A stretch of 64,000 bases of DNA, from contig DAOUPT010000007.1 of assembly GCA_030626025.1 (NCBI GenBank), positions 1 through 64,000 on the forward strand, written 5' to 3'. The DNA is from Anderseniella sp. Lineage in GTDB: Bacteria; Pseudomonadota; Alphaproteobacteria; Rhizobiales; Aestuariivirgaceae. A model generated the notes under the pieces. It was not told where the DNA came from, ran no database searches, and saw only the letters and a list, made by a program, of their open reading frames with translations. Made by a program: the position numbers and the translations under genes. This document shows, piece after piece, positions 14,088 to 46,958 of the stretch (its first letter is position 1; every line of letters begins with the position of its first letter).

Positions 14088-14192
14088 TTGTCGGGGACCA
14101 TAACCCATTGTATCAACAAACGCTATTGTCCTTAGCATGGTGCGGCTGTTAGAGTCTTTAAAGTTAATATCGCAAACAAAAACGAGATATAA

Positions 14193-15086: not shown

Positions 15087-15124
15087 TGCTTGTCTGCACC
15101 TGCCGGTAACATTAAGGTCACCCC

Positions 15125-15898
15125 ATGACCTATGAAAACATAATTTGCGAAACCCGCGACGCTGTTGGCCTGATCACCTTGAACCGGCCAAAGGCACTCA
15201 ATGCTCTTAATTCGGCGCTTATTGGCGAACTAAATCAGGCCCTCAAGACTTTTAACGATGACAAATCCGTTGGCTGCATCGTGATTACCGGCAGTGAAAA
15301 GGCTTTTGCTGCAGGGGCTGATATCAAGGAAATGCAATCCAAAGACTACATGGATGCCTATATGGATGATTTCCTGGGCAGTTGGGGTCATCTGGCGGAC
15401 CAACGCAAGCCGATTATTGCTGCGGTGGCGGGTTATGCCCTTGGCGGGGGCTGTGAATTTGCCATGATGTGCGATTTCATTATCGCTGCCGACAATGCCA
15501 TGTTTGGGCAACCGGAGATCAAACTGGGGACCATTCCAGGTGCCGGTGGTACCCAGCGGCTAACCCGGTTTGTTGGCAAATCCAAAGCCATGGAGATGGT
15601 TTTGACCGGTCGGATGATGGATGCCGAAGAAGCCGAGCGGGCCGGACTTGTTTCGCGAATTGTTCCAGCTGACGAATTAGTGGCTGATGCTCTTAAAACA
15701 GCACAAAAAATTGCTGCGATGTCGTTGCCATCCGTAATGATTGCCAAAGAGTCGGTTAATCGTGCCTATGAAACCACTCTGGCTGAGGGTATCCGTTTTG
15801 AACGGCGGGTTTTTCACTCTCTTTTTGCCACCAAAGATCAAAAAGAAGGCATGCAGGCTTTTATCGACAAACGAAAAGCTGAATTTGAGAATAAATAA
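15125..15898 (+). CDS. Enoyl-CoA hydratase (crotonase family)
   Basis: A 257-residue crotonase-fold protein. The oxyanion-hole segments [10 protein letters not shown] and [15 protein letters not shown] and both catalytic glutamates (in GGGCEFAMM and [20 protein letters not shown]) are present, so it should be an active short-chain enoyl-CoA hydratase for beta-oxidation or a related degradative path. It starts 38 bases after mutM behind a weak AAGGTCACCCC. The mutM-enoyl-CoA hydratase-rpsT order is common in Rhizobiales. Confidence 0.88.
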
Positions 15899-29442: not shown

Positions 29443-29508
29443 GGCGCGAACTGCCCTAAATTTTTTACAGTCATCGAACCGGTAAATAAAAGAGAAGGGG
29501 TGCTGGCA

Positions 29509-29952
29509 ATGCAAACAAAATCTGCTGCCCGCAATATTTTTTATGGTGGCTCGCTGTTTTTCCTGCTGATTTTTTTCGGCCTGACAGCTCATAGTCACTA
29601 TTACATTAAAAACACATCAACCAACGAAGCTACCTTAACTGAATCGGTAGCTCGCGGTAAAAAAATCTGGGAAGACAAATCCTGCGTCAACTGTCACACA
29701 ATTCTTGGCGAAGGTGCTTATTTTGCACCCGAACTTGGCAATGTCTGGCTCCGTCGCGGTGGCAAGGACGATCCAGAGGGCGCTGCTGATTTCATTAAAG
29801 AATGGATGAAAGCGCAACCAACTGGCATTGAAGGCCGTCGCCAGATGCCACAATTTCATCTCACTGAAACAGAACTTAATGACCTTGTTGAGTTTTTCAA
29901 GTGGGTTAGTACTATTGACACAAATGGCTGGCCGCCAAACGAAGCCGGTTAA
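29509..29952 (+). CDS. norC: Nitric oxide reductase cytochrome c subunit NorC
   Basis: A membrane-anchored monohaem cytochrome of about 147 residues. One N-terminal helix (IFYGGSLFFLLIFFGLTAHSH) precedes the haem c site CVNCHTILGEGAYFAPELGNV, the NorC signature, and the methionine ligand region RQMPQFHLT. It feeds electrons to NorB. I use ATG 29509; a GTG nine bases earlier would leave the AGAGAAGGGG ribosome site too close. It is the first gene of norCBQDEF. Confidence 0.95.
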   Translation: MQTKSAARNIFYGGSLFFLLIFFGLTAHSHYYIKNTSTNEATLTESVARGKKIWEDKSCVNCHTILGEGAYFAPELGNVWLRRGGKDDPEGAADFIKEWMKAQPTGIEGRRQMPQFHLTETELNDLVEFFKWVSTIDTNGWPPNEAG

Positions 29953-29964
29953 GGAGAGATTTCC

Positions 29965-31329
29965 ATGAAATACCAATCACAGAAAATCGCCATGGCCTAC
30001 TTCGCAGTTGCCATGGGTTTGTTTGCCATTCAGGTTCTGGGGGGCTTGTTGGCAGGGTTTATTTATATTGCTCCCAATTTCCTGTCTGAGCTTTTGCCCT
30101 TCAATGTAGTTCGCATGTTACATACAAACGCTTTGGTCGTTTGGCTGTTACTCGGATTTTTCGGGGCTGCGTACTATCTTGTACCTGAAGAAGCCGAACG
30201 TGAAATCCACTCACCCTTGATCGCCTATCTACAGCTCATTCTGCTGGTCGTTGGTACATTGGGTGCAGTGGTTACCTACACTTTCAATCTTTTTGAAGGT
30301 AACTTCTTCCTCGGACTGCAAGGTCGTGAATTCCTTGAACAACCCTTGTGGGTCAAGCTGGGGATTATCGTTGCCGCCTTGATGTTCCTGTTCAACATTA
30401 CAATGACAGTTCTTAAAGGTCGTAAAACAGCAATTACCAACGTTCTAATTCTTGGTCTTTGGGGTATTGCTATTTTCTACCTGTTCTCGCTTTACGTTCC
30501 TGCCAATCTGGCGCTGGACAAAATGTACTGGTGGTATGTTGTCCATCTGTGGGTTGAAGGCACCTGGGAACTGGTGATGGCTGCCATCCTTGCATTCCTG
30601 ATGCTGAAACTAACCGGTGTTGACCGCGAAGTGGTTGAGAAATGGGTTTATGTTATCGTTTCTCTGGCACTTTTCTCTGGTGTGCTTGGCACCGGTCACC
30701 ACTATTACTGGATCGGAACTCCATACTACTGGACATGGATCGGCTCAATCTTTTCGGCCTTGGAAGTGGTACCGTTTTTTGCCATGGTTCTGTTTAGTTT
30801 CACCATGGTCTGGAAAGGTGGCCGCGATCACCCCAATAAAGCTGCCGTCCTTTGGGCACTTGGTGCAGCTGTCATGTCGTTCTTTGGCGCTGGCGTCTGG
30901 GGTTTCATGCATACCTTGTCGAGTGTAAACTTTTACTCGCACGGTACGCAGGTTACAGCCGCCCACGGTCACCTGGCTTTCTTTGGGGCCTATGTTTCGA
31001 TCAATCTGGCAATCATCACCTATGCAATGCCGTATCTGTTGAAACGCGAACCCTATAACCAGGTTTTGAACATGGTCAGTTTCTGGATCATGAACTCAGC
31101 CATGGCCTTCATGACCTTCGTGCTGACTTTTGCCGGTGCAATTCAAACCCACCTGCAACGGGTCAACGGTGAAGACTTCATGAGCGTGCAAGAACAATTG
31201 AATCTGTTCTTTATCATGCGCTTTGGTTCTGGTGCGGTATTTGTTCTAGGCGCTGTGCTGTTTATCTATGCAACCTTTGTACCACGTAAAGAACTGATCG
31301 GTTCAGTCGATACTGCACCAGCAGAATAA
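29965..31329 (+). CDS. norB: Nitric oxide reductase catalytic subunit NorB
   Basis: A 454-residue haem-copper-superfamily protein with about 12 helices. The haem b ligand region VVRMLHTNALVVWLLLGFFGAAYY, the metal site segment WWYVVHLWVEGTWELVMAAI with the glutamate characteristic of NorB, GTGHHYYWIGTPYYW and HGHLAFFGAYV are all present. It reduces two NO to N2O with electrons from NorC. Its length matches cNorB rather than the longer quinol-dependent qNor. It follows norC by 12 bases. Confidence 0.97.
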   Translation: MKYQSQKIAMAYFAVAMGLFAIQVLGGLLAGFIYIAPNFLSELLPFNVVRMLHTNALVVWLLLGFFGAAYYLVPEEAEREIHSPLIAYLQLILLVVGTLGAVVTYTFNLFEGNFFLGLQGREFLEQPLWVKLGIIVAALMFLFNITMTVLKGRKTAITNVLILGLWGIAIFYLFSLYVPANLALDKMYWWYVVHLWVEGTWELVMAAILAFLMLKLTGVDREVVEKWVYVIVSLALFSGVLGTGHHYYWIGTPYYWTWIGSIFSALEVVPFFAMVLFSFTMVWKGGRDHPNKAAVLWALGAAVMSFFGAGVWGFMHTLSSVNFYSHGTQVTAAHGHLAFFGAYVSINLAIITYAMPYLLKREPYNQVLNMVSFWIMNSAMAFMTFVLTFAGAIQTHLQRVNGEDFMSVQEQLNLFFIMRFGSGAVFVLGAVLFIYATFVPRKELIGSVDTAPAE

Positions 31330-31344
31330 GGAAATAAAGTAACG

Positions 31345-32145
31345 ATGTTGACCAAACTGGATACCCAAACAACCGTACCCTTCTACCAACCTGTTGGTGA
31401 TGAGTGCGAGGTGTTTGAACGGGCCTTCAAGCTTAAACTGCCTTTGTTGCTTAAAGGCCCGACCGGTTGCGGTAAAACACGGTTTGTCTCTCATATGGCA
31501 GCCCGACTTGGTTTATCGCTCAACACCGTTTCCTGTCACGATGATCTGGCAGCGGCCGACCTTACCGGCCGCTACCTTTTAAAAGGCGGTGAAACCATCT
31601 GGGCCGATGGCCCTCTGACCGGCGCGGTTCGAAATGGTGGTGTTTGTTATCTCGATGAAGTTGTAGAAGCCCGTAAAGACGTCGCGGTGGTTATTCACCC
31701 ATTGACCGACGACCGTAGAATTCTGCCGCTTGATCGCACCGGTGAAGTACTTGAAGCACCGGATAATTTTATGCTGGTTGTCTCCTACAACCCTGGCTAT
31801 CAGAATATTCTGAAATCTCTAAAACCCAGTACCCGGCAACGCTTTCTAGCGCTGGATTTTGATTTCCCGCCCGCACCAGCCGAAACCAAAATCGTTGCTA
31901 CTGAAAGTGGCCTTGATGATGACAAGTGCGGACAATTGGTACGCCTTGCGGCAAAGTTGCGCGCCCTCAAGGGCCAGGAAATCGAAGAAGGTGTCTCCAC
32001 CCGCTTGCTGGTTTACTGCGCAACGCTGATTGCTGACGGGATGAAAGTTGAACGGGCTATTGAAGTGGCCCTGATCGAACCCCTGAGCGATGACAGTGAT
32101 GTCAAAGCCGGATTACGCGACATCGTGCAGGCGATTTACGGATAA
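31345..32145 (+). CDS. norQ: AAA+ (MoxR-type) ATPase NorQ
   Basis: A 266-residue ATPase of the CbbQ/NirQ/NorQ family: Walker A GPTGCGKTRFVSHMA, Walker B CYLDEVVEARKD, sensor 1 VVSYNPGYQ. With its VWA partner NorD it is needed to insert the non-haem iron into NorB. It lies 15 bases after norB. Confidence 0.93.
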   Translation: MLTKLDTQTTVPFYQPVGDECEVFERAFKLKLPLLLKGPTGCGKTRFVSHMAARLGLSLNTVSCHDDLAAADLTGRYLLKGGETIWADGPLTGAVRNGGVCYLDEVVEARKDVAVVIHPLTDDRRILPLDRTGEVLEAPDNFMLVVSYNPGYQNILKSLKPSTRQRFLALDFDFPPAPAETKIVATESGLDDDKCGQLVRLAAKLRALKGQEIEEGVSTRLLVYCATLIADGMKVERAIEVALIEPLSDDSDVKAGLRDIVQAIYG

Positions 32146-32150
32146 AACAG

Positions 32151-34097
32151 ATGGCAGGTATCACCAGCTTGTTTGAACCCGAAGAGCTGTTCGGGGCCTT
32201 TTGGCACCGTTTGGTTGGCGATGTTGACGTTGAACAACGTTTCCCTGAGGCTGGCGTTTCATTAAAGGATATCCGCCGTCGGCTGGAAATTTTCTTTCGT
32301 GGTCTTGGCGGCAAGCCGGGTGTTGAAATAAAGGCCATCGCACCGCAGTCTATTGATTATCGGCAAAAATTTCTGGCAAGAATCGGCCATGGTTCAACCG
32401 CGGTCAGCCGGGCGCGGTTTGACGGGGATCACCTATTTCTTCCTGAACGAATTGAACTGCTTGATGACCAGCAACTCAATGAAGACCTTTACAAATGGTT
32501 GTGTGCATGGGCAGCCGTTATGGGTGATGACAGTCCGGAGGTGATGAGCGACCCCTTGCAAAATGACATCGTGTTCATCGGTTTTGTTCACACCATTTCG
32601 TTGCGGGTGTTTGAACAGTTTCCCGGCATGAAAGTCGTTTATGACCGGATTGCCCCAGCACTGTTGGCCAGTCGGCAACAACGCCAATTACCACCGCAAG
32701 AAGCCGACCTTGAAGCTTGCATACAGGCCTTGATAGCCGGGCAAGAGCCTGCCGGTATTGCTCCAGACGTCTGGCGAGCCATCACTACGGAAAACACCGA
32801 TATAAGCGGCTTTAAAGCCCGCACGAGCTATAAGACCTTTTTGCCCTTCGCGCTTTGGGGCGAAGTCATTCTTGCCCAACCTGGCAAGCGAGAAAAAAAG
32901 GACCCTCAGGAACAAGGCTCATCTGACTCGACCCAAACCTCCGATAATCGCAGCCGCAAAGCCAAGCGGAAAAAATCAGATCAGGTCGATAACAAGAACT
33001 CGCTGGTTCTTCATCGGTTTGAATCAATTTTATCGTGGGCCGAGATGATGAATATCCCGCGGGCAGTGGAAGATGACGATGAAGACAATGCCAAAAAAGC
33101 TGCTGATGATCAGGAAGAAATTGGACTTGCCCAAACCGCTAAAAAAGCATCGACCAAGCTAAAATTTGACCTTGATTTGTCACCACAAGATGTCGAGCAT
33201 GAAGCTATTGCCGACAAACACACCTATCCCGAATGGGATTACCGCAAGAACATTTATCACCGCGACCATTGCCGGGTACTGGCAGGTCCTGCCCCCGAGC
33301 TGGAGGAAGGTTCTACATGGCAACCCGATAAAGCTGCCCGTCGCCGGATAAGAGCGGTAAAACGGCAATTTGAAGCTCTACGACCAAGGCGCGAAAAACA
33401 TCTGCGCCAGGTTGACGGCAATGAAATTGATATGGATGCCCTCATCCGGGCAAAATGTGACCTTGTTGCGAATGGTGAGGGTTCCAACCGGATTTTTACC
33501 AATTTCCGCGAAACCGCCCGCGATCTGTCGGTCAGCGTACTTATTGACATTTCACGCTCATCAGAAAGCTGGATCGAAGGTCGGCAGGTAATTGAAATCT
33601 CAAAAGAAGCCTTGTTGGCACTGGCAATCGGGTTAACAGCCAGTGGTGATGACAATGCCCTTTACAGCTTTTCCTCCCTCAAGCGCGAGCGGGTCATTGT
33701 TTCGACCTTGAAAGATTTTGATGAACCCCTGGGACCGCGGGTTTTTTCCCGCATCGGTGCCTTACAGCCAGGATTTTACACCCGGCTTGGTGCTGCCATC
33801 CGTCATGTGGGCGGACAATTGTCAAAGACCGCCAGCAGCAAACGATTATTACTGGTGTTGACAGATGGTAAACCCAATGACCTTGACCATTATGAAGGAC
33901 GTTATGGCATTGAGGATACCGCCATGGCGGTGCGTGAACTCAGACGGGCCGGATCAGCGGTGTTTGGCATTACCATCGATAAAAAAGCCCAAAGCTATTT
34001 TCCATACATATTTGGACGCAATGCTTATTCGATCACCAACCATGCCAGCGATTTAACCCGTGCGTTGCCTCTTATGTATCGGCATCTGGTTTCATGA
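32151..34097 (+). CDS. norD: Nitric oxide reductase activation protein NorD (VWA domain)
   Basis: A 648-residue cytosolic protein with a C-terminal von Willebrand A domain: the MIDAS motif is DISRSSESW (near 480), and LVLTDGKPNDLDHYEGRYGIEDT follows. A charged Lys/Asp/Glu-rich insertion lies at about 240-340. NorD couples NorQ ATP hydrolysis to maturation of NorB. It starts five bases after norQ and its stop overlaps norE (ATGA). Confidence 0.93.
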   Translation: MAGITSLFEPEELFGAFWHRLVGDVDVEQRFPEAGVSLKDIRRRLEIFFRGLGGKPGVEIKAIAPQSIDYRQKFLARIGHGSTAVSRARFDGDHLFLPERIELLDDQQLNEDLYKWLCAWAAVMGDDSPEVMSDPLQNDIVFIGFVHTISLRVFEQFPGMKVVYDRIAPALLASRQQRQLPPQEADLEACIQALIAGQEPAGIAPDVWRAITTENTDISGFKARTSYKTFLPFALWGEVILAQPGKREKKDPQEQGSSDSTQTSDNRSRKAKRKKSDQVDNKNSLVLHRFESILSWAEMMNIPRAVEDDDEDNAKKAADDQEEIGLAQTAKKASTKLKFDLDLSPQDVEHEAIADKHTYPEWDYRKNIYHRDHCRVLAGPAPELEEGSTWQPDKAARRRIRAVKRQFEALRPRREKHLRQVDGNEIDMDALIRAKCDLVANGEGSNRIFTNFRETARDLSVSVLIDISRSSESWIEGRQVIEISKEALLALAIGLTASGDDNALYSFSSLKRERVIVSTLKDFDEPLGPRVFSRIGALQPGFYTRLGAAIRHVGGQLSKTASSKRLLLVLTDGKPNDLDHYEGRYGIEDTAMAVRELRRAGSAVFGITIDKKAQSYFPYIFGRNAYSITNHASDLTRALPLMYRHLVS

Positions 34098-34666
34098 ACC
34101 CTGAACAGACTGACAACTCCGACGATTGGGGCCCGCTTTCGGGACTTCCCGGCAACCCGATCATGTGGGTGCTCATCGCCAGCGAACTGGTTGTTTTTGG
34201 CGCTATGTTTATCGGCTTTGGCATATTGCGGATTTCTGAACCTGATGCATTTGTCGAATCGCAAAATCACCTTGACCGACTTGCCGGTGCAATCAATACC
34301 ATGGTTTTGGTTTCCAGCGGGTTTTGCGCTGCACTGGCGGTTCACTATCAAATAAACGGCAACACGCTCAGAACACGCCTGTGGCTCTCTGCGGGGGCTC
34401 TTCTTGGTGTGGTTTTTCTTGGTATCAAATTTATCGAATATGCCGACAAATTCGCCGTCGGCATTTCAACCGACACCAGCAGCTTTTTCATGCTTTATTT
34501 TCTTGCCACAGGTTTTCACGCCCTGCATGTGGTGTTTGGCATTATCATTCTTTTCATCGTCGGCTGGAAAAACTCGGTGGAAAATGTTGTAACCGGAACA
34601 GCCTTCTGGCACATGGTTGACCTGATCTGGGTTATTCTTTTTCCTGTCGTTTATCTGTTGAGGTAG
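34094..34666 (+). CDS. norE: NorE, cytochrome oxidase subunit III-like protein
   Basis: A 190-residue membrane protein with about five helices, belonging to the haem-copper oxidase subunit III family (ELVVFGAMFIGFGILR; FFMLYFLATGFHALHVVFGII; WHMVDLIWVILFPVVYLLR). NorE is accessory, and in Paracoccus it affects NO reductase activity. Start ATG 34094 overlaps the norD stop by four bases. Confidence 0.9.
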   Translation: MNPEQTDNSDDWGPLSGLPGNPIMWVLIASELVVFGAMFIGFGILRISEPDAFVESQNHLDRLAGAINTMVLVSSGFCAALAVHYQINGNTLRTRLWLSAGALLGVVFLGIKFIEYADKFAVGISTDTSSFFMLYFLATGFHALHVVFGIIILFIVGWKNSVENVVTGTAFWHMVDLIWVILFPVVYLLR

Positions 34667-34670
34667 GCCA

Positions 34671-34973
34671 ATGAAACACGCTCAATACCCTGCTCCGCGC
34701 ACCCTGTTTATCATTTGGCTGGCTTTGATATTGGCCACAGCAATAACCATGATGGCTGGTAAGGTCACCCAAATAGCCTCCATCGGTGTGGTTTGGACTG
34801 CCGTCCTTATGATCGTCACCGGACTGAAAGCCAATTTGATACTGTCGTATTTTCTCGACCTTCGATCTGCAACAGGTGGCTGGAACAAGGCGTTTAACGC
34901 CCTGATTATAATCATAATTATCGCAATTTTTGCGCTTTATGCAGGCGGCAGTCTAGCTGTCATCAAGGTGTAA
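34671..34973 (+). CDS. norF: NorF, small membrane protein of the nor operon
   Basis: A 100-residue protein with three predicted membrane helices (TLFIIWLALILATAITMM; IGVVWTAVLMIVTGLKANLIL; NALIIIIIIAIFALYAGG). The SYFLDLR segment resembles cytochrome oxidase subunit IV-like proteins, as in NorF. It follows norE by four bases and ends the nor operon; no clear terminator follows. Confidence 0.82.
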   Translation: MKHAQYPAPRTLFIIWLALILATAITMMAGKVTQIASIGVVWTAVLMIVTGLKANLILSYFLDLRSATGGWNKAFNALIIIIIIAIFALYAGGSLAVIKV

Positions 34974-37011: not shown

Positions 37012-37095
37012 TGACAAAATGTCATGCGCTGAAACTGTTATTATTCAAGGTTTTATCTGTTTTAGCCGCCATTTTCACTGCCATTTTGTCATGCC
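37012..37095 (+). promoter_or_regulatory. Candidate activator (enhancer) sites upstream of the sigma-54 promoter
   Basis: TGACA-AAA-TGTCA at 37012-37024 is a perfect palindrome, and CATTTTGTCATGCC at 37082-37095 repeats its TGTCATGC and CATTTTGTC elements. They lie about 105-190 bases upstream of the expected transcription start, the usual distance for NtrC-type enhancer sites. The activator at 46955 is the natural candidate to bind here. Assignment is by position and symmetry only. Confidence 0.5.
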
Positions 37096-37175: not shown

Positions 37176-37191
37176 TGGCACGATTGTTGCT
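37176..37191 (+). promoter_or_regulatory. Sigma-54 (RpoN) -24/-12 promoter of the Met-rich protein operon
   Basis: TGGCACGATTGTTGCT matches the RpoN consensus TGGCAC-N5-TTGCW with GG at 37177-37178 and GC at 37189-37190, exactly ten bases between the dinucleotides. Transcription should begin near 37201, giving a leader of about 57 bases before the first gene. The same cluster encodes an NtrC-type sigma-54 activator with GAFTGA, which strongly supports the call. Confidence 0.9.
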
Positions 37192-37218: not shown

Positions 37219-37257
37219 GGAAACCGTAGAGCAAAATTAGTGCGGGAGAGCAGGGTT

Positions 37258-37557
37258 GTGAGGTTTAAGAGATTGTTCATTACGGCAACGGTGGTTTGTG
37301 TGTTGCCGGGTTCCGGGTTTTGTCAGGATTTATTTATTGCTGGCACAAGTCCGGAAAGGCGACCTGAAAATGCGCCGGTCATTTCCAAAGAAATAGATAA
37401 GAACGGTAACTGGTATGGCAAAGCGCTTACAGGCGTTGCCCAGCCCTATCCCTACAGTTTGCATTTCCTTGAAAATCAAGGGGGATGGTTCAATCCCTTT
37501 ATCCATCCCGGTGCACCCGGGCCTTATGACATTCGCGGGTGGCACAAAGGCAAGTAA
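37258..37557 (+). CDS. Small exported protein of unknown function, first gene of the Met-rich operon
   Basis: A product of about 99 residues if initiated at GTG 37258 (GGGAGAGCAGGG lies just upstream); another in-frame GTG is at 37240. The start RFKRLFITATVVCVLPGSGFC-QD looks like a Sec signal peptide with cleavage near residue 23. The mature part of about 76 residues is rich in Pro, Gly and aromatics (PYPYSLHFLENQGGWFNPF, HPGAPGPYDIRGW) and has no cysteine or haem motif. I recognise no family. Its position directly behind the sigma-54 promoter and before the Met-rich gene suggests a periplasmic partner of that protein. Confidence 0.65.
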   Translation: MRFKRLFITATVVCVLPGSGFCQDLFIAGTSPERRPENAPVISKEIDKNGNWYGKALTGVAQPYPYSLHFLENQGGWFNPFIHPGAPGPYDIRGWHKGK

Positions 37558-37667: not shown

Positions 37668-38807
37668 ATGACAATTAAGCGCTTAAAATATGTGGCGGCC
37701 GCCACAGTGTGCTCAGCCTCATTAATGGCTATGGCCACAGCAATGGCAGGTCAAACAGGTATGAGTGGCATGTCCGGTATGAAAGGTATGTCCGGCATGG
37801 GTGGAATGAGCGGAATGTCTGGCATGAAAGGCATGTCCGGTATGAGCGGGATGTCAGGTCAAGCAGCTCAATCCTGGGTTTGCACACAGTACTCTCTTGC
37901 TAGTGCAAGACAAGCTGGCATGTCCGGCATGAGCGGAATGTCCGGTATGAAAGGCATGAGCGGAATGTCCGGTATGAAAGGCATGAGCGGAATGTCCGGT
38001 ATGAAAGGCATGAGCGGAATGTCCGGTATGAAGGGCATGAGCGGAATGGCTGGCATGAAGGGCATGAGCGGAATGGCTGGCATGAAGGGCATGAGCGGAA
38101 TGGCTGGCATGAAAGGCATGAGCGGAATGGCTGGCATGAAAGGCATGAGCGGAATGTCCGGCATGAAAGGCATGAGCGGAATGTCTGGCATGAAAGGCAT
38201 GTCCGGCATGAAAGGCATGAGCGGAATGGCTGGCATGAAAGGCATGAGTGGAATGTCCGGCATGAAAGGCATGAGCGGAATGTCTGGCATGAGTGGTAAT
38301 TCAGGCGCTCGCTGGGTTTGCACCCAATATACCCTTGGTAATTCCGGCATGAGCGGAATGTCAGGCATGAGCGGAATGTCAGGCATGAAAGGTATGTCCG
38401 GCATGGGCGGAATGTCCGGCATGGGCGGTATGTCCGGTATGTCAGGCATGAAAGGTATGTCCGGCATGGGCGGTATGTCCGGCATGAAAGGCATGTCTGG
38501 TATGAAAGGCATGTCCGGTATGGGCGGAATGTCAGGAATGTCTGGCATGGGCGGTTTCTGGGTCGTTATTCCTGGTGGAAACAACGGCAGAGGACAGTGG
38601 TTGTTCGTACCTAGCTATGTCGGCGGCATGTCCGGCATGGGCGGCATGTCCGGTATGGGCGGCATGTCCGGTATGAAAGGCATGTCCGGCATGGGTGGAA
38701 TGTCTGGCATGAAAGGCATGAAAGGCATGTCAGGTATGGGCGGAATGTCCGGTATGAAAGGCATGTCCGGCATGGCGGCTAAAACCTGGACCCCACCTTC
38801 CAACTAA
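37668..38807 (+). CDS. Exported methionine-rich (M-x-G)n repeat protein
   Basis: A 379-residue protein. Residues 1-28 form a Sec-like signal peptide (TIKRLKYVAAATVCSASLMA, ending AMA-G). The rest is four blocks of the tripeptide M-(S/K/A/G)-G: residues 32-64 (11 triplets), 85-210 (42), 228-296 (23) and 321-368 (16, plus one Met after). By hand count 97 of 379 residues are Met, 93 in the lattice. Higher order is M-S-G, M-S/A-G, M-K-G (nine residues). Linkers contain WVCTQYSLAS, WVCTQYTLGN and an aromatic GQWLFVPSY. The strict i,i+3 Met spacing is that of Cu(I)-binding Mets motifs, but Met is also a sacrificial oxidant target, and an exported Msr and a DMSO-reductase-type enzyme are nearby. AAAGAGGAGCAAGAA gives a strong ribosome site. 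Confidence 0.9.
   Translation: MTIKRLKYVAAATVCSASLMAMATAMAGQTGMSGMSGMKGMSGMGGMSGMSGMKGMSGMSGMSGQAAQSWVCTQYSLASARQAGMSGMSGMSGMKGMSGMSGMKGMSGMSGMKGMSGMSGMKGMSGMAGMKGMSGMAGMKGMSGMAGMKGMSGMAGMKGMSGMSGMKGMSGMSGMKGMSGMKGMSGMAGMKGMSGMSGMKGMSGMSGMSGNSGARWVCTQYTLGNSGMSGMSGMSGMSGMKGMSGMGGMSGMGGMSGMSGMKGMSGMGGMSGMKGMSGMKGMSGMGGMSGMSGMGGFWVVIPGGNNGRGQWLFVPSYVGGMSGMGGMSGMGGMSGMKGMSGMGGMSGMKGMKGMSGMGGMSGMKGMSGMAAKTWTPPSN
37920..38297 (+). repeat. Tandem 27 bp DNA repeat inside the Met-rich gene
   Basis: The second Met block is built from a nearly identical 27-base unit (ATGAGCGGAATGTCCGGTAT plus GAAAGGC, with GCTGGC replacing TCCGGT in several copies), about 14 units including two shortened ones. Such homogeneity implies recent expansion by recombination or slippage, so repeat number may vary between strains. 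Confidence 0.85.
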
Positions 38808-38885: not shown

Positions 38886-40001
38886 GTGAACAAAATGGAG
38901 TCCGTTATGTCTTTTCTGGGTTTAGCAGGCGTTGCCTCAACTGTTGGTCTGGCAGCTTTTGCACTCTTTAATGTCGTCGATAAAGGGGCGTATAACCCCA
39001 ATATACCCGTTAAAGCAGCTGTTGAAGTAAATGTTTCAAACGCCGAAAAAAGTGCAAATTCATCCCCTGTTCCCGCCCCTGCTTCCAGAAAACCTGAAGT
39101 AATTCGTGTGGCGGCCAGCAGTGAGACAACGACCACTGCAGATACACAAGAAGATCAAACCATCAAATATGCTAATCCGCCCGCCCGCACAGCCAAAGAG
39201 CAGGCACGCATAGCTCAGGCAGTCGCGACACTGCAAAAGTCGGTCAAGAGCATCGACTATGAGCGAGCCCGTTACCATCCCATACATTTCAAACCACAAA
39301 TTTCAAAAGCCAGCAACAAAGAATGTCTGGTTTGTCATACAGAAATTATGACCCGAAAGCCTCGTAAGGTTTCAAAAGCGGGCGTAAAATCAACCGATAT
39401 TCTGGCCTGGTATCAAACGCTTGATACATATGCCGGCAAACAACAATCATTTCATTTCCGGCATTTGGAAAGTGACTTTGCCAAACAGGTGATGAACCTG
39501 TCGTGCAATTTCTGCCACAAGGGTAATGACCCGCGTGAAGAAACACCGGACATGCAACCTGGTCAAAAATTATTTACAGCATCAGCAAAACCGAATTTTA
39601 CACTACGAAAAATGGTCAACCCCAAGCAGGTCTGCCTGCGTTGTCATGGCAAATTTCCATTTGAAGTTATGGACGGTGTTGAAGGCCCTTGGCACGCTGC
39701 GCGCAAAGATATCGAAGACGAAGAAACACCCAATGGCTGCTTGACATGCCATGGCGAAGACGGCTTCAGGACCAACCGTCATAAGGTCACTTACCTCAAC
39801 GCAGCAAATATCGAAGAGCTGGCCAAGAAGAGTTCTGACGTTTGTTATGGTTGCCACGGCGGGCGTAAATGGTACCGCATAAATTACCCATATCCGCGTC
39901 ACCCCTGGCCTGACATGGATGAGGAAACACCTGAATGGGCTAAAAATCGTCCGACAAAATCAGAACCTGAATATCAATTAAAAGCCAAGGCTGTCAAATA
40001 A
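38886..40001 (+). CDS. Pentaheme c-type cytochrome, membrane-anchored or exported
   Basis: A 371-residue protein with five CxxCH haem c sites: CLVCH 147-151, CNFCH 207-211, CLRCH 250-254, CLTCH 285-289 and CYGCH 320-324. Residues 9-29 (SFLGLAGVASTVGLAAFALF) form an uncleaved anchor or signal, followed by a low-complexity Ala/Ser/Pro/Thr stretch (50-100). It is not a NapC/NirT-type quinol dehydrogenase by sequence pattern. GTG 38886 is nine bases from GAGGAG; ATG 38895 is the alternative. It lies directly before a Tat-exported molybdoenzyme and is the likely electron donor or acceptor for it, since no DmsC/NrfD-type membrane subunit is encoded here. Confidence 0.88.
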   Translation: MNKMESVMSFLGLAGVASTVGLAAFALFNVVDKGAYNPNIPVKAAVEVNVSNAEKSANSSPVPAPASRKPEVIRVAASSETTTTADTQEDQTIKYANPPARTAKEQARIAQAVATLQKSVKSIDYERARYHPIHFKPQISKASNKECLVCHTEIMTRKPRKVSKAGVKSTDILAWYQTLDTYAGKQQSFHFRHLESDFAKQVMNLSCNFCHKGNDPREETPDMQPGQKLFTASAKPNFTLRKMVNPKQVCLRCHGKFPFEVMDGVEGPWHAARKDIEDEETPNGCLTCHGEDGFRTNRHKVTYLNAANIEELAKKSSDVCYGCHGGRKWYRINYPYPRHPWPDMDEETPEWAKNRPTKSEPEYQLKAKAVK

Positions 40002-40027: not shown

Positions 40028-42568
40028 GTGAAGACTTTGATTAACAAATTACTGTCAGGCAACTCGGCTAAACTGGACCGGCGCAAATTCCTGCAATCAA
40101 CCGCTGCTACAGCTGCGACCGGGCTGGTGATGTCAGGCAAGGCAAAAAAGGCAGAAGCCTTTGCCTATGAGCCTTATCCCAAAGACAATGATCTGACCAC
40201 TGTGGTTACCTCATGTGCGCACAATTGTGGCTCACGTCATATGCTGGTCGCCCATAAAAAAGATGACGTTATCGTGCGCCTGTCGAGCGATGATGGCACC
40301 TATCAGGGTGATGCTTTTGGAACTGACACCGAACAGGTTCCGCAATTGCGCGCTTGTCTGCGTGGTCGCTCATATCGCTTGCGCTTGTACTCACCCGAAC
40401 GCCTGCTTTACCCAATGAAACGGGTTGGTGAGCGCGGTGAAGGGAAATTCAAGCGCATTAGCTGGGATCAGGCGCTGACTGAAATCTCGGAAAAAATGGT
40501 GCAGCTTAAAGAGACTTATGGCCCAACGGCGATCCTTGATCAAAGTTATGCTGGCGCTTCTTATGGTGTACTGCATAAGTCAGACCAGATTGAAGGCTTG
40601 TTGGCGCGTTTTCTTGGCATGTTCGGTTGCCGGACAAATTCATGGTCGGTTCCTTCTTATCAGGCAACAACATTTGCCTCGCGCACCAATTACGGCACTA
40701 TTCAGGATGGTAATGAAGATGATGCTTTTGCTCATTCCAAGCTGATTATCATGTGGGGTTGGAATCCGGCTTACACCTTCCACGGCGGCAATACTTTCTA
40801 CTACATGCGCATGGCCAAACAGCGCGGTTGCAAATTTGTTATCATTGATCCCCAGCACACTGATTCAGCTTCGGCATATGATGCCTGGTGGATTCCGATT
40901 AAACCAAATACCGATGCTGCGATGATGGCCGGCATGGCCTATCATATCTTTGACAAGAACCTCCATGATCAGGAGTTCATCGACAAGTTCGTGCAAGGTA
41001 TGGATAAGGGTACGATGCCGGGATGGGCCAGCGGTCAGGAGAGCTTTAGGGAGTATCTGGCCGGTGCGTTTGACAACACGCCCAAGACACCTGAATGGGC
41101 CGCCGATATTTGCGGGGTTTCTGCAGATGACATTCGCAAACTTGCCGAAATGTATGCGACAACCAAACCGGCAGCGCTCAAGGCATCATGGTCACCGGGC
41201 CGCAATGCTTATGGCGAGCAATATGCCCGCATGGCCAATGCCCTTCAGGCCATGACCGGCAATATCGGCAAACTTGGCGGTTGCGCCGAAGGTGTTGGCA
41301 AGGGCTTTCACGTTGAAGGCACTGCTCACCCTTATGACCAATATGCCAATGTCTGGTTTGCCTCGCTAAAATCTGATCGCTGGGCACATTGTGTATTGAA
41401 TTATCCCAATGTGAAGCGTGAAGAAATCGGTCTGTGGCCACGTCAGGATAACACCGATGGGCAAATCCCCAACATCAAGGCGATTTTCTGGCACGGGTCT
41501 GACTGGTTCAACCAGCTGACCAATATCAACAAGGAAATCAAGGCGATCGAAAAGATGGAAATGGTTGTCTGTATGGATTCAACTATTACCCCGTCAGGCA
41601 TATGGGCGGACTATCTGTTGCCAATCGGCACCCACTTTGAACGCCATGATGTGGCCCTGCCCTGGTACAAAGGTCATTATTATATTCATCGGCCAAAAGT
41701 GATTGAGCCACTGGGTGAATCAAAATCGGATTTCCAGGTTTTCACCGAGCTGGCTTACCGCCTTGGTTTTGGTAAAAGTTTCAATCCAAAAGCCGACCGT
41801 AGCTATTTTGATAATGCTGACGCGGTCGATGAGGCTTATCTGTCAGAATGGTGGGTGAACCGGGTTATGCACCATCAGGGTGTTGAAATCAGCTGGGAAG
41901 AATTTAAAAAACGCGGGGTTTACAAGTTTCTTCTCAAAGAACCCCATGTTGCCTTTAAAGCGCAGATCGAAAATGGCAAACCTTTCCAGACCCCTTCTGG
42001 AAAAATTGAAATTTTCTCTACCACGCTTGCCCAGATTACCGACTGGACTAAAACGCAATATGGTTACGAGATCCCGGCCATTCCAAAATGGATTGAACCG
42101 TGGGAATCACTCAATCATCCACTTGCCAAAAAATTCCCGTTCCATCTGATTTCGCCACACCCGCGCTGGCGCACTCACTCAATCTTTAACAACATTCCCT
42201 GGTTGCGCGAGACATTCTCACAGGAAACAACCATGAATGCTTCTGATGCGCGAAGGCTCGGGTTGAAAACTGGCGATATTGTTGAAGTGTGGAATGATCG
42301 CGGCAAGGTTGTTACACCGCTCTATGTTACCGAGCGCTGTATGCCCGGTGTTGCTGTTTTACATGAGGGAGCCTGGATGGACCTTGATGAAAACGGGGTT
42401 GATCGCTCTGGCAATCCGGACTTCCTGACCAAGGATGATCCAAGTCCGGCAGGTGCATTTGCCTACAACACAGTGCTGGCGAATATCAAAAAAACCGATC
42501 TGGACCACCGGCCCGGCTGGGATAAGCTTTCCACCTCCCGCTCGCACGTTTTCCGTCGTGATAACTGA
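40028..42568 (+). CDS. DMSO-reductase-family molybdopterin oxidoreductase, Tat-exported (DmsA-like)
   Basis: An 846-residue catalytic subunit. A Tat signal (DRRKFLQSTAATAATG, Arg18-Arg19) marks export of the folded enzyme. The Fe-S site reads C63-x3-C67-x3-H71 ... C110 (SCAHNCGSRHML; RACLRGRS): the third ligand of DmsA (Cys) is His here. The bis-MGD fold follows (GEGKFKRISWDQALTEI, LIIMWGWNPAYT, IDPQHTDSASAYDAWWIPI, GNIGKLGG, MNASDARRLGLKTGDIVEVWN). The Mo-ligand region SWSVPSYQATTF aligns with the DmsA serine region, so I expect Ser ligation. DMSO, TMAO, methionine sulfoxide or another S/N-oxide is the likely substrate class; the true substrate is unknown. Confidence 0.85.
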   Translation: MKTLINKLLSGNSAKLDRRKFLQSTAATAATGLVMSGKAKKAEAFAYEPYPKDNDLTTVVTSCAHNCGSRHMLVAHKKDDVIVRLSSDDGTYQGDAFGTDTEQVPQLRACLRGRSYRLRLYSPERLLYPMKRVGERGEGKFKRISWDQALTEISEKMVQLKETYGPTAILDQSYAGASYGVLHKSDQIEGLLARFLGMFGCRTNSWSVPSYQATTFASRTNYGTIQDGNEDDAFAHSKLIIMWGWNPAYTFHGGNTFYYMRMAKQRGCKFVIIDPQHTDSASAYDAWWIPIKPNTDAAMMAGMAYHIFDKNLHDQEFIDKFVQGMDKGTMPGWASGQESFREYLAGAFDNTPKTPEWAADICGVSADDIRKLAEMYATTKPAALKASWSPGRNAYGEQYARMANALQAMTGNIGKLGGCAEGVGKGFHVEGTAHPYDQYANVWFASLKSDRWAHCVLNYPNVKREEIGLWPRQDNTDGQIPNIKAIFWHGSDWFNQLTNINKEIKAIEKMEMVVCMDSTITPSGIWADYLLPIGTHFERHDVALPWYKGHYYIHRPKVIEPLGESKSDFQVFTELAYRLGFGKSFNPKADRSYFDNADAVDEAYLSEWWVNRVMHHQGVEISWEEFKKRGVYKFLLKEPHVAFKAQIENGKPFQTPSGKIEIFSTTLAQITDWTKTQYGYEIPAIPKWIEPWESLNHPLAKKFPFHLISPHPRWRTHSIFNNIPWLRETFSQETTMNASDARRLGLKTGDIVEVWNDRGKVVTPLYVTERCMPGVAVLHEGAWMDLDENGVDRSGNPDFLTKDDPSPAGAFAYNTVLANIKKTDLDHRPGWDKLSTSRSHVFRRDN

Positions 42569-42588: not shown

Positions 42589-43266
42589 ATGGCTCAAGAG
42601 CTCGACAAGAAAAAAATTAAAGCGGCGGTAAAAAAGCGTAAACGTGAGACCTATACACCGGTTGTCCCAAAAATGCAGTTAGGCTTTATCCACAACAATG
42701 TTGACTGCATTGGCTGCCGTGCCTGTGAAATGGCTTGCAAGGACAAAAACGGTTTATCAGCCGGACCGCGTTTCCGGAGGGTCCAATATGTTGAGGGCGG
42801 GACATATCCGGAGGTTTTTGCCTTCAAGATCAATATGTCATGCAACCATTGTGCAGAACCAGCCTGCCTGCCCACCTGCCCGACCGGGGCAATATTCAAG
42901 CGCAAGGAGGATGGTATTGTTGACATTGATTCCACCTTGTGCATCGGCTGTCGGCGATGCGAGGCTGCTTGTCCTTACGGTGCGCCACAGTTTGATCCGG
43001 TCGATAATCTGGTTAAAAAATGCAACATGTGCGTTGATGAGATTGAAGCCGGGCGCAAACCTTATTGCGTTATGGCCTGCATGATGCGAGTGCTGGATAT
43101 CGGCCCGATTGATCAATTGCGTGAAGGAACCTATGACACCAAAGCGCGCGCTCCTCACGAAAAAGTTGTTCGGCAGGTTCGCTCAATGGCTGACCCGGAA
43201 CTGACAAATCCGTCCATCGTTTTTATTCCTCATAGCAAAGGTTTACCGGAAAATGACAGCGACTGA
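42589..43266 (+). CDS. Four-cluster [4Fe-4S] electron-transfer subunit (DmsB-like)
   Basis: A 225-residue DmsB/PsrB/NrfC-family protein with four ferredoxin-type cysteine groups: CIGCRACEMACK, CNHCAEPACLPTCPT, CIGCRRCEAACP and CNMCVDEIEAGRKPYCVMACM. It has no signal peptide and so would be co-exported with the Tat-targeted catalytic subunit, as DmsB is. It starts 20 bases after the catalytic gene, and its end overlaps the chaperone gene by 14 bases. With no membrane anchor subunit in the cluster, it should exchange electrons with the pentaheme cytochrome. Confidence 0.88.
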   Translation: MAQELDKKKIKAAVKKRKRETYTPVVPKMQLGFIHNNVDCIGCRACEMACKDKNGLSAGPRFRRVQYVEGGTYPEVFAFKINMSCNHCAEPACLPTCPTGAIFKRKEDGIVDIDSTLCIGCRRCEAACPYGAPQFDPVDNLVKKCNMCVDEIEAGRKPYCVMACMMRVLDIGPIDQLREGTYDTKARAPHEKVVRQVRSMADPELTNPSIVFIPHSKGLPENDSD

Positions 43267-44002
43267 CGAAAATGCTGCAAAGATCACCCTGAAGCCGATA
43301 GCTGACGATTTGCGTCTGCTGGCAAGGTTCCATGACCGTGAACTTGAACCAGAATTCTTAAGCGGTTTGCGAAAAGGTAAGATCACAGAGTTTTTATCGG
43401 TATCAATGGAATCAGATACCGCCATTCAGGCTGCTAATAATCTTGATGCGGCATTGGCTTTATTGCCCTCAGCTCTTGGTGAAACCATGCTGGACGCACT
43501 TGCGGCGGAGTATGCCAATATTTATTTATGTCATAATTACCGTATCGCACCGACAGGTTCGGTCTGGCTAACAGAAGAAAAACTTGAGCGTCAGGAGCCA
43601 ATGTTTGCGGTGCGCGAATGGTATTCCAAATACGATGTAAAAGCCCCGGACTGGCGCATCCGCCCTGATGATCACATCGTGCATGAATTACAGTTTCTGT
43701 CTGTCTTGTGTGAATTGGATACCAAACAAAGTGCATTGGATGCCGTGGCTTTTCTTGATCAGTGTATGCTGGTCTGGATACCGGATTTTGCAAATGCCGT
43801 GAGTGAGCGGGCACTCGAGCCAATCTACATTGCCAGCGCATCGCTAACCGCTGCGTATCTGGAAGAGTTACGTGATTTGCTTGAAGTGGCCACCGGTATT
43901 GCCCGGCCTGCTGAAGACCCTGAAACGGACGAGGATACTGCACGAGTTTACGACATTGATCTGGATCGGCCTTTTGCTCCAGGTACATCTGAAAGCTGGT
44001 AA
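43253..44002 (+). CDS. TorD/DmsD-family molybdoenzyme chaperone
   Basis: A 249-residue helical protein. The middle carries the family pattern (DALAAEYANIYLCHNYRIAPTGSVWLTEE, then the MFAVREWYSKYDVKAPDWRIRPDDHIVHELQFLSVL segment like the TorD E(Y/F)xxLF...PDHIxxEL motif). These cytosolic chaperones bind the Tat signal and help cofactor insertion into their partner. Overlap with the Fe-S subunit gene implies coupled translation. Confidence 0.85.
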   Translation: MTATDENAAKITLKPIADDLRLLARFHDRELEPEFLSGLRKGKITEFLSVSMESDTAIQAANNLDAALALLPSALGETMLDALAAEYANIYLCHNYRIAPTGSVWLTEEKLERQEPMFAVREWYSKYDVKAPDWRIRPDDHIVHELQFLSVLCELDTKQSALDAVAFLDQCMLVWIPDFANAVSERALEPIYIASASLTAAYLEELRDLLEVATGIARPAEDPETDEDTARVYDIDLDRPFAPGTSESW

Positions 44003-44007
44003 GGCAG

Positions 44008-45063
44008 GTGTTCTGGCAACGCAAATCGGATTCGACTCACCATAATGTCAAACAATGCCCGTTGCCAGAAATTGATGGTAAGGCCTGTGTGCATTCGATT
44101 TCTATCACAGCAAGTTGCCAGCTTTGCGTTGATGCCTGCCCCGCTAAAGCCATCGTCATGGATGATGAGATGCTTGGTCTTGATGAAGCAGCTTGCACCG
44201 CTTGCGGGTTATGTCAGGCGGTCTGCCCGCAAAATGCTATTTCAATAGTTTACGAACCGCCGGTGCGCGGTGATGAAGTATTGCTGGTGTGTGAAAAGAC
44301 CGGGGCTGAATACGGCAGACAACGGATCAGCTGTTTGCATCAGGTGGGTATGGAGCAATTGGCAAAATACTATCAGCAAGGTGTCCGAAAACTAATTGTT
44401 GCTAGCGCTGATTGCAAGACTTGCATTGCACCAGGGCGATTGCTGGAAAAACACCTGCAAGAGTTTAATTTGCTCGCCTGCAACCGTGAACTGTCCCCAA
44501 TCGAAATGATTGTTGGCCCTTGCGTCCCTGATAAAAAATGGTGCCAGGCAGATGAGGAACTTGAGCTGGAGGACTCCAGCAAACGAAAACTCTTTACAGC
44601 TCTTGGTAAGCATTTAAGCGATAATAATAACGAACCGGCGGAAGATGCTCCTGCGTCACAACATGCAAAATTTCAGAGCCGTAACGCATCCCCAAAAACA
44701 ACTATATTCTCATGGGTTCCTCGAATTAATGAAGACCGGTGTGATGGTTGCGATGCCTGCATGAGAATTTGTCCGGCCCATTCCTTGACAAGAGTCAATG
44801 AAAATGGCTCACAAACCCATTACGAAATACTACCGCAAAATTGTAACGGGTGTGAATTGTGTCTGGATGTATGTCAGAACGATGCAATTATTTTGTCAGA
44901 GATGGATGTGTGCAAAACCCGCATCGTTCCATTGCAGGCCTTTACCTGTACATCGTGTGGAGTAGCATGCCATGTGCCAGGTTCAGAGACTAAAGAGGAC
45001 AGTTTATGCAGGATCTGTTCACAGACACAGCATCACAAGAAGCTGTTTCAGGTTCTAACATGA
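44008..45063 (+). CDS. Polyferredoxin with two double-cluster domains and a C-terminal CxxC region
   Basis: A protein of about 351 residues from GTG 44008, five bases after the chaperone stop; the ribosome site is weak, so the start is uncertain. It contains CQLCVDACPAKAI...CTACGLCQAVCPQNAI (about 37-75), a central part with isolated cysteines (CLHQ, ADCKTCIAPGR) resembling NapF/NapG-like proteins, a second pair CDGCDACMRICPAHSL...CNGCELCLDVCQNDAI, and a terminal CTSCGVACHVPG...CRICS. There is no signal peptide. It could feed electrons or reductant to enzyme maturation, or inform the kinase encoded next, whose start overlaps its stop (ATGA). Confidence 0.75.
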   Translation: MFWQRKSDSTHHNVKQCPLPEIDGKACVHSISITASCQLCVDACPAKAIVMDDEMLGLDEAACTACGLCQAVCPQNAISIVYEPPVRGDEVLLVCEKTGAEYGRQRISCLHQVGMEQLAKYYQQGVRKLIVASADCKTCIAPGRLLEKHLQEFNLLACNRELSPIEMIVGPCVPDKKWCQADEELELEDSSKRKLFTALGKHLSDNNNEPAEDAPASQHAKFQSRNASPKTTIFSWVPRINEDRCDGCDACMRICPAHSLTRVNENGSQTHYEILPQNCNGCELCLDVCQNDAIILSEMDVCKTRIVPLQAFTCTSCGVACHVPGSETKEDSLCRICSQTQHHKKLFQVLT

Positions 45064-46958
45064 ACCCGCCTGGATCATTGTCAAAACTGGCCCGCTGGAT
45101 CGATAGCAAACTGCAACGAAAACTGGTTATTATCCTAGCCGGTTTACTGCTGGTGACCTCGACAGCATTTCTTGCGATGGTAATCGCTGTTTATAAAACC
45201 CAACTTGTTAATGAACATGCGCGCGCCTCGCTGCAGGTAAACCGGTTACTTCAGGCATCCCTTGAAAATGCCATGCTAAAGCGTGACATTGATGGTTTGC
45301 GTGATATCGTTAGGCGGCTTGGCAAGCAGGAAGGCATCGCCGGGGTTGCCATCCTCAATCCCGATTTTGAAGTCCGCTTCACCTCTGGTGCCGACCAGTT
45401 TAAAAAGACGATGGCATCGCCAATGGTCCAGAAAGCCCTTGGCAGCAAAACACCGCAAACCCGTTTTATATCGTTAAATGACGGCACCCATCTGCTGCGC
45501 AGCATAAACCCGGTTCACAATAAACCCCAATGCAAAGAATGCCATGGGGAAGCCGATAAAAATCCCGTAAACGGTTTGCTGGTGATTGATTACAATGCCG
45601 CCAGCATCAAACAAAATGCCTTAAACAGTGCACTTATGTTAGGCGGCATTGGTGCAATTGTGGTTTTTGCGACCGGGCTTGGTATCTGGCTGGCGTTAAA
45701 GTGGCTTGTTGTTGCCAGGTTGCGCCGCCTTCGTCATGCCAGTCGTTTATTGGCCAGAGGGAATTTGGAAACCCGGGCAAATATCGCGGGACATGACGAA
45801 ATCAGTGAATTGTCCGATAGTTTTGATCATATGGCAAAGCGTCTTGGTGATTCCTTGCAAGCGCTGAATGCCTCCGAGAAATTTTTGCAAAGTGTGATTG
45901 ACTCCATTCCAGATGGTATTCGCGTCATTGATGACGATTTTAACATTATCAAGGCCAATCAGGCCTATTGCGAACAGGCTGGACAATCGATGGGCACTGT
46001 GATCGCAGAAAAATGCTACAAGTCTTCCCACAACCGCAAGGAGCCTTGTCCCATTACTCTGGTCGATTGTCCGATTGTTGAACTAAAGAAATCCCCAACA
46101 AAAACCATCAAGACCCATCATCAGCATTTTAATGATGAGGGAAGCGAGTTGTTTGTGGAAGTCTCAGCTGCTCGGGTTCAACTGACCCTTAACGGCAAAA
46201 CCTCCTCATATGTTATTGAATCCATTCGTGACCTGGCCGAACAGGCTAAAATATCGCAAGAGCAACGCCTGTCAGAACTCGGCCTGCTGGCAACCGGCGT
46301 TGCGCATGAAATTCACAACCCGCTTTCTTCTATCATGTTTGCTCTAAAAGCGATGCAGGGTGATATCGACACCCTGGGGACAGAACGGAAGGCTGATCTT
46401 GATTATCTGGGCATTGCCGAGACAGAAATCCAAAAATGTCTTGAAGTTACCGACCGATTGCTCATGCTGAGCCTGCCACCAAGCGATGATCGCGAGCTTA
46501 TTGATGTGAGTTCAGCCACGCGCAAAGCCCTTTCGCTTCTTTCATATCAAATCGAGCACGACGGGGTTGTCCTGAAGCTTGATCTTGAGGATAATCTGCG
46601 TATTATTGCCTGTGAAAGCGACGTGGGAATGATCGTGATTAATCTGGTGCAAAATGCCCTTCACGCAATGCCTCAAGGTGGCGAACTGAAAATTAGAGGG
46701 CACCGGATTGCTGATCAGATTGCGCTTGAATTCAGCGATACAGGCGTAGGTATTGCAAAGCATAATCTGGATAAAATTTTTCTTCCCTTCTGGACAGAGC
46801 GAGCAGATGCCAGTGGTGGACGCGGTCTTGGCCTTTCAATCTGCGAAGCAATCGTTGACAGGCTAGGTGGAACAATTAAAGCAAAAAGTGCGGTTGGTGT
46901 TGGTACAACATTTTCAATACTGCTTCATGACGCTGATTCAGAAAGGCAAGATCAATGA
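45060..46958 (+). CDS. Sensor histidine kinase with a periplasmic CxxCH (haem c) motif
   Basis: About 632 residues from ATG 45060, which overlaps the polyferredoxin stop; a longer frame from 45006 exists. Order: membrane helix 21-45, periplasmic domain 46-190 with CKECH at 158-162, helix 191-216, HAMP 217-270, PAS 275-390 holding a cysteine-rich CY-x9-CP-x5-CP pattern (319-338), HisKA with H416 in GVAHEIHNPLSS, and HATPase with NALHAMP, DTGVGIA and GRGLGLS. The CxxCH predicts covalent haem and so redox, oxygen or NO sensing outside the membrane. The partner is the NtrC-type regulator that overlaps its 3' end. Confidence 0.9.
   Translation: MNPPGSLSKLARWIDSKLQRKLVIILAGLLLVTSTAFLAMVIAVYKTQLVNEHARASLQVNRLLQASLENAMLKRDIDGLRDIVRRLGKQEGIAGVAILNPDFEVRFTSGADQFKKTMASPMVQKALGSKTPQTRFISLNDGTHLLRSINPVHNKPQCKECHGEADKNPVNGLLVIDYNAASIKQNALNSALMLGGIGAIVVFATGLGIWLALKWLVVARLRRLRHASRLLARGNLETRANIAGHDEISELSDSFDHMAKRLGDSLQALNASEKFLQSVIDSIPDGIRVIDDDFNIIKANQAYCEQAGQSMGTVIAEKCYKSSHNRKEPCPITLVDCPIVELKKSPTKTIKTHHQHFNDEGSELFVEVSAARVQLTLNGKTSSYVIESIRDLAEQAKISQEQRLSELGLLATGVAHEIHNPLSSIMFALKAMQGDIDTLGTERKADLDYLGIAETEIQKCLEVTDRLLMLSLPPSDDRELIDVSSATRKALSLLSYQIEHDGVVLKLDLEDNLRIIACESDVGMIVINLVQNALHAMPQGGELKIRGHRIADQIALEFSDTGVGIAKHNLDKIFLPFWTERADASGGRGLGLSICEAIVDRLGGTIKAKSAVGVGTTFSILLHDADSERQDQ

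Follow-up and report, generated by a model that had tools for sequence, protein, structure and literature searches.

The window, a 64,000-nucleotide stretch of Anderseniella sp. DNA, carries a gene for a methionine array, here called the (MxG)n protein (37668-38807, + strand), which is conserved beside one clade of DMSO-reductase-family molybdoenzymes. The enzyme clade was read at 18 loci. At 15 of them the contig also carries an (MxG)n gene upstream of the enzyme, and at the other three (G025, G029 and G035) the contig ended before the array position. We propose that the array is a rechargeable antioxidant, exported from the cytoplasm, oxidised to Met sulfoxide and re-reduced by the DmsA/DmsB-like enzyme with cytochrome electrons. 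We regard this proposal as about evenly poised between right and wrong.

Composition and relatives of the (MxG)n protein

The (MxG)n ORF, defined from the ORF list, triplet counts and relatives, starts with ATG and encodes 379 aa, among them 97 Met and 93 M-x-G triplets. Triplet mapping placed 92 of the 93 triplets in four blocks on the + strand, at aa 32-64 (37761-37859), aa 85-210 (37920-38297), aa 228-296 (38349-38555) and aa 321-369 (38628-38774), respectively. The remaining triplet, MAG at aa 26-28, lies at the end of the signal peptide, which was read by eye from the N-terminus. A neighbouring Met at +3 or -3 was found for 93 of the 97 Met, and 89 of the 96 Met-to-Met gaps were exactly 3, confirming by residue and gap counts the i,i+3 spacing and the four blocks of the preliminary description. 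In 2000 composition-preserving shuffles, Met pairs at i,i+3 averaged 24.5 and reached at most 37, compared with 89 in the protein. The x position was occupied by S, K, G and A in 54, 23, 10 and 6 triplets, respectively (summed from codon counts), and the earlier claim that only these four residues occur there was upheld by the recount. Block 2 carried a 27-bp (nine-residue) period with 13.9 copies at 37926-38292, as found by tandem-repeat detection. This superrepeat and the two WVCTQY linkers had been described before, and a third, different linker (FWVVIPGGNNGRGQWLFVPSYV) is added here.

The ATG letters and the first two Gly letters were invariant across all 93 triplets, while the third Gly letters varied (C48, T22, A22 and G1) and Ser was encoded by five codons. 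Because the ATG and GG letters are fixed while the silent letters differ, the protein itself appears to be under selection. With cleavage assumed at residue 28, the protein would have a mass of 33.9 kDa, a pI of 10.9 and 2.74 mmol of thioether per gram. The 398 stop-to-stop residues of the ORF contained one His and five Asp/Glu, and Pro was absent from the MxG blocks by reading. The N-terminus, read as a signal peptide, suggests that the protein is exported. Two antisense ORFs (37868-38584 and 38615-38803) were read as shadows of the repeat. Since L063, L065, L066, L068, L074 and other related contigs end inside the array, the repeat number is sensitive to assembly, possibly in the window too.

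The (MxG)n protein matched PF01391 (Collagen) with an E value of 3e-36 and 123 bits against a cut-off of 27. When all NCBIfam models were searched at E 0.01, three collagen-like models and no others matched, TIGR02953 not being among them, and the collagen-like adhesin models all scored below their own cut-offs. We read the Pfam, NCBIfam and PDB sequence matches as the result of Gly at every third residue, and a collagen-like protein was not accepted as the explanation. The earlier statement that the repeat belongs to no known family still holds, as the library matches were to collagen and collagen-like models only. AlphaFold2 models had low confidence, with mean pLDDT values of 42.8 and 61.4 for the (MxG)n protein and the small exported protein encoded before it, respectively. 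A search of plasmids with the (MxG)n protein gave no match, although a Rhodobacter xanthinilyticus plasmid carries a relative, so this search was blind to such sequences, presumably through its low-complexity filter. A TIGR02953 search of the 18 carrier genomes likewise gave no match, and no control genome gave one either.

The relatives comprised 22 rows of stop-to-stop ORFs, several of them cut by contig ends or masked stretches, with 14 (in G240) to 108 Met and 12 to 102 MxG triplets each. At the x position S and G prevailed, K, N, A, Q and a few rare residues also occurred, and in G601 it was Y, P, R, G or W. With x as divergent as this, Met and Gly are the conserved part of the repeat. 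Linkers resembling W-x-C-T-Q-[WY] were present in many members but not in all, the proteins of G168 and G314 having no Cys, and the strict period of three was broken in places in the array of G096. G601 (L073) encoded two adjacent array proteins on the minus strand (13590-14438 and 14644-15567), with M-[YPRGW]-G instead of M-[SG]-G. Two weak matches (18-19% identity) were seen on contig C44 of the window's own genome. A Thiomargarita MAG (L019, 10001-10465) encodes a short protein of the (MKGMEG)n type whose N-terminus is signal-like. It was treated as unrelated, as by reading the flanking ORFs look like housekeeping genes with no redox operon beside them. A match in G469 (33% identity), obtained in the class search with the (MxG)n protein, was dropped, the stretch L075 being without any operon gene or MxG ORF.

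Operon, regulatory sites and distribution

The (MxG)n gene is second in a run of genes on the same strand, after the gene for a small exported protein of 105 aa (37240-37557, +). This small protein had a signal-like N-terminus, no Pfam or NCBIfam match and 16 invariant columns in a 17-member alignment. The array gene is followed on the + strand by genes encoding a pentaheme cytochrome c with a hydrophobic N-terminus (38886-40001; CxxCH counts and multiheme Pfam matches), a DmsA-like molybdoenzyme with a Tat motif (40028-42568; Pfam, NCBIfam, structure-relative and orthologue alignments), a DmsB-like iron-sulfur subunit (42589-43266; TIGR02951 at 196 bits, cut-off 214; 45% identity to E. coli DmsB) and a TorD-like chaperone (43253-44002; PF02613 at 69 bits, under the NCBIfam cut-offs). 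Then come a ferredoxin-like protein with several 4Fe-4S motifs by Pfam (44008-45063, +), a sensor histidine kinase (45006-46958, +, with the true start probably near 45060 by reading; PF21563, HAMP, PAS, HisKA and HATPase_c) and, by Pfam, an NtrC-type sigma-54 activator/response regulator (46955-48331, +). The usual order among the loci was small exported protein, (MxG)n protein, pentaheme cytochrome c, DmsA-like, DmsB-like and TorD-like proteins, often a ferredoxin, a CxxCH histidine kinase and the NtrC-type regulator. Apart from the window, 7 of the 15 array loci had the ferredoxin-like gene or a part of it. DmsA and DmsB were the most conserved, with mean pairwise identities of 0.79 and 0.78, respectively, compared with 0.61 for the cytochrome and 0.52 for both the regulator and the small protein.

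No DmsC and no copper genes were recognised among the operon genes with Pfam and NCBIfam or in the annotated R. xanthinilyticus stretch. Chlorite dismutase, MsrP and MsrQ were not recognised in the operon ORFs scanned with Pfam and NCBIfam. MsrP was encoded elsewhere in 13 of the 18 carrier genomes, and in the window's genome it lies on contig C73. Upstream of the operon, the ORFs at 29500-34973 look by reading like a cluster for nitric oxide reductase, with NorC/B/Q/D-like and accessory proteins. In G115, a class I cytochrome c-like ORF was observed by reading downstream of the regulator gene (L069, 2113-2799, minus strand).

Pattern scans of the loci identified putative regulatory sites upstream of the small gene. 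In the window, the palindromes TGACA-N3-TGTCA (37012-37024), a putative regulator site, and TGCCA-N3-TGTCA (37079-37091), 67 bp from the first, are followed by a sigma-54-type -24/-12 promoter, TGGCACGATTGTTGC (37176-37190, +), and the start of the small gene at 37240. Of the 19 loci, 15 had the pattern TG[AC]CA-N3-TG[GT]CA ahead of the small gene, 10 of them with at least two copies, compared with 0.03 loci expected from dinucleotide shuffles, an expectation uncorrected for the choice of the pattern from the same 19 sequences. The exact TGACA-N3-TGTCA was present in 8 of 19 loci (0.01 expected, with the same qualification). The broader palindrome was not found in the upstream regions of G168, G195, G275 and G601. 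Sigma-54-type sites were present in the same upstream region in 12 of 19 loci (0.95 expected), and a narrower pattern gave 11 of 19 (0.56 expected). All 17 loci with a kinase ORF, some of them cut by contig ends, had one CxxCH in the sensor part of the kinase, and no kinase was found in G932. The sensor-domain model PF21563 matched the window's kinase at 29.5 bits (cut-off 27) and was not reported for three kinase orthologues at E 1e-5.

When 60 genomes were searched with the enzyme, eight including the window's own genome gave matches of 78-100% identity, and the next best match was 36%. Five of the eight enzyme contigs extend far enough upstream of the cytochrome to cover the array position, and each of them (G000, G003, G005, G017 and G047) had the (MxG)n gene. 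A small-protein search across the order (397 genomes) found 15 carriers including the window's own genome, each of them with an (MxG)n ORF. In G017 the (MxG)n ORF and the small gene were on different contigs, and in G096, G195, G275 and G372 the contig ended inside the array, so an adjacent enzyme is not visible there. In a class set of 289 genomes, matches to the enzyme (E up to 1e-150) and to the small protein picked out the same three genomes, and in a phylum sample of 398 genomes the small protein had four carriers, all in the window's class, which the named relatives show to be Alphaproteobacteria. Further loci came from the class search with the (MxG)n protein (G601) and the phylum search with the small protein (G932). 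G601 departs from the usual order: upstream of its small gene comes another ORF and then the two array genes. The Hyphomicrobiales MAG contigs L022 and L023 carried the small gene and an array running off the contig end. A conjugative plasmid of R. xanthinilyticus, found via the cytochrome, also carries the operon (L060). Genes for IS21- and IS1380-type transposases were observed upstream of it.

The molybdoenzyme clade and its cytochrome

The window's enzyme was 73.0-85.6% identical to 15 full-length orthologues and 35.8% identical to E. coli DmsA, and its best solved relatives were DMSO and TMAO reductases. Ser210 of the enzyme aligned with the Ser147 position of solved DMSO reductase, and a Tyr aligned with the Tyr114 position, while the Trp two residues after is replaced by Gly. 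In DMSO reductase, Ser147 is the Mo-ligand Ser. The Ser position places the enzyme in the DMSO reductase family as a putative reductase of the S-/N-oxide type. The motifs SWSVPSYQ and DQSYAG and the Tat motif were kept in all 16 enzyme sequences. All 16 also had Cx3Cx3H (aa 63-71 in the window), compared with Cx3Cx3C in E. coli DmsA, pointing to a possible His-ligated iron-sulfur cluster in the clade. The TIGR02166 (DmsA) score was 628.7 bits, below the curated cut-off of 777.7. Because of this score, we file the enzyme as a sister clade and not as DmsA, and its substrate is not readable from the DmsA name.

The cytochrome had five CxxCH motifs in 14 of 16 orthologues and six in the other two. 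The six-CxxCH cytochromes, those of Rhodobacter (PF00034; L060, 13377-14849) and G932 (L078, by reading), carry an extra class I cytochrome c region. This N-terminal extra region hints at the cytochrome's redox partner. No NapC/NrfH-type Pfam match was obtained for the cytochrome, and hence no quinol route is visible.

Proposed function and alternatives

In the proposed cycle, the (MxG)n protein would be exported and would present about 93 thioethers in a mostly non-globular array outside the inner membrane. Periplasmic oxidants (e.g., hypochlorous acid, chlorite, peroxynitrite and peroxides) would convert Met to Met sulfoxide on the array, sparing working proteins. The DmsA/DmsB-like molybdoenzyme would then turn these sulfoxides back into Met, with electrons reaching it through the pentaheme cytochrome. 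The sensor kinase, probably bearing a c-type heme, and the NtrC-type regulator would answer an inducing signal by activating the operon from the sigma-54 promoter via the upstream palindromes. The preliminary description had suggested either an oxidisable thioether array or Cu(I) binding. The first of these gains contextual support as an oxidisable shield, since the conserved neighbour is a DMSO-reductase-family enzyme with the Ser and Tyr positions, while the Cu(I) half gains none, as no copper gene was recognised in the operon and His and acidic residues are scarce.

Related enzymes and peptides provide precedents. Met sulfoxide bound in proteins is a substrate of DorA (PMC7402097). In E. 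coli and H. influenzae, DmsABC is hypochlorite-inducible and acts on Met sulfoxide as a reductase (PMC12096835, PMC11024254), and Met-rich peptides paired with MsrPQ (MrpX and BcrX) scavenge hypochlorite (PMC8315932, PMC4623255). According to PMC8076862, activity of E. coli DmsA on Met sulfoxide within proteins was not demonstrated. For this reason, and because MsrP is encoded elsewhere in most carrier genomes, we only infer the cycle of Met to sulfoxide and back on the array. MsrP repairs Met sulfoxide generally, and with it at hand a dedicated reductase is not indispensable. Several further points count against the recharging cycle. Operon neighbourhood does not prove the substrate, the extra class I cytochrome c region at two loci also fits electrons leaving the enzyme, PF21563 was reported for the window's kinase but not for three orthologues, the array of G240 has so few Met, and no kinase was found in G932. 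In a rather unlikely version, the array is a self-made sulfoxide battery, loaded as Met sulfoxide under oxidants and later discharged via the molybdoenzyme-multiheme chain fed by respiration, and thus a protein-bound store of electron acceptor. In a variant that the extra cytochrome c regions leave open, the enzyme may run in reverse and oxidise Met on purpose.

The strongest rival to the recharging cycle is that the enzyme acts on another substrate, which may be an S-/N-oxide or one of the oxyanions (chlorate, bromate or selenate, for example), that the array merely scavenges by-products and that MsrP or another enzyme repairs it. This has a minority but real chance of being correct. According to PMC4623255, MrpX with YedYZ belongs to a perchlorate reduction island, TIGR02166 spans DMSO and selenate reductases, and a repair enzyme is at hand in the genomes with MsrP. 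However, neither chlorite dismutase nor MsrP or MsrQ was recognised in the scanned operon ORFs, and the tight pairing of enzyme and array does not require a third party. Gly at every third residue, the matches to collagen models and a length that varies as in structural repeats would all suit a mainly structural array. It would form a fibre or bundle of the collagen or polyglycine-II kind, serving as an envelope scaffold for the cytochrome and reductase or conducting electrons outward. We consider this improbable, as the window's blocks lack Pro, the predicted model is not confident and an invariant Met with varying x is left unexplained.

A periplasmic Cu(I) or Ag(I) store like the Mets-motif proteins was considered for the M-x2-M spacing, with its 89 pairs, and for copper-type loci. 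Six proteins from 14 loosely similar loci were Pfam-scanned, and these six were multicopper oxidases (four) or CusB/HlyD-type adaptors (two) with Met-rich stretches. A metal store is nevertheless very unlikely and was not preferred, because the operon holds no recognised copper gene, the window's protein has almost no His or acidic residues, and the constant partner is an enzyme of the sulfoxide-reductase type. In those oxidases and adaptors the M-x2-M motif is part of a copper protein, whereas here it makes up a whole array protein without an adjacent copper gene. Tandem DNA repeats and length differences among relatives would also be expected if the repeat had arisen only through expansion of DNA repeats, without selection for a function. 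This is barely credible, however, given the fixed ATG and GG letters over 93 triplets with varying silent letters, and the array's retention next to this enzyme at each of the 15 readable loci, with changed residues at x.

The recharging cycle resembles known systems. In MrpX-YedYZ/MsrPQ of Azospira suillum and BcrXQP of Brucella melitensis, too, a molybdenum Met sulfoxide reductase is encoded next to a Met-rich repeat protein, which is proposed to act as a sacrificial sink for oxidants (PMC8315932, PMC4623255). However, the peptides there carry MxKDx repeats, while the repeat here is M-x-G with a period of three and no match to an MxKDx model. The neighbour there is MsrP and here a DMSO reductase family enzyme, and an ECF sigma factor there stands against a two-component system and a sigma-54-type promoter here. 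The enzyme shares its family, Tat motif and Ser and Tyr positions with DmsABC and DorA, which reduce Met sulfoxide, but no DmsC was recognised in the operon, which has the pentaheme cytochrome and the (MxG)n gene instead. In TorCA, too, a pentaheme cytochrome serves a DMSO-family reductase (PMC11727998), and a TorD-type chaperone is common to both systems, whereas the cytochrome here has no NapC-type Pfam match and bears an extra cytochrome c region at two loci. No description of the (MxG)n-molybdoenzyme-cytochrome combination was found in the openly licensed literature searched, which lacks most subscription journals. The principle of a Met array with a molybdenum reductase is thus already known, and the present combination would be a variant built from unrelated parts.

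If the proposed cycle is correct, the device of a Met sponge plus a molybdenum reductase would have been assembled from unrelated parts on at least two occasions, in this case with links to a multiheme cytochrome and a sensor-regulator pair of its own. The operon also sets apart a distinct clade within the DMSO reductase family, one in which a neighbouring gene hints at the substrate. An array as extreme as this, with about 2.7 mmol of thioether per gram, makes the question of Met-array antioxidants directly testable, and the operon is present in a named bacterium, R. xanthinilyticus, with the presumed recycler and regulator in hand.
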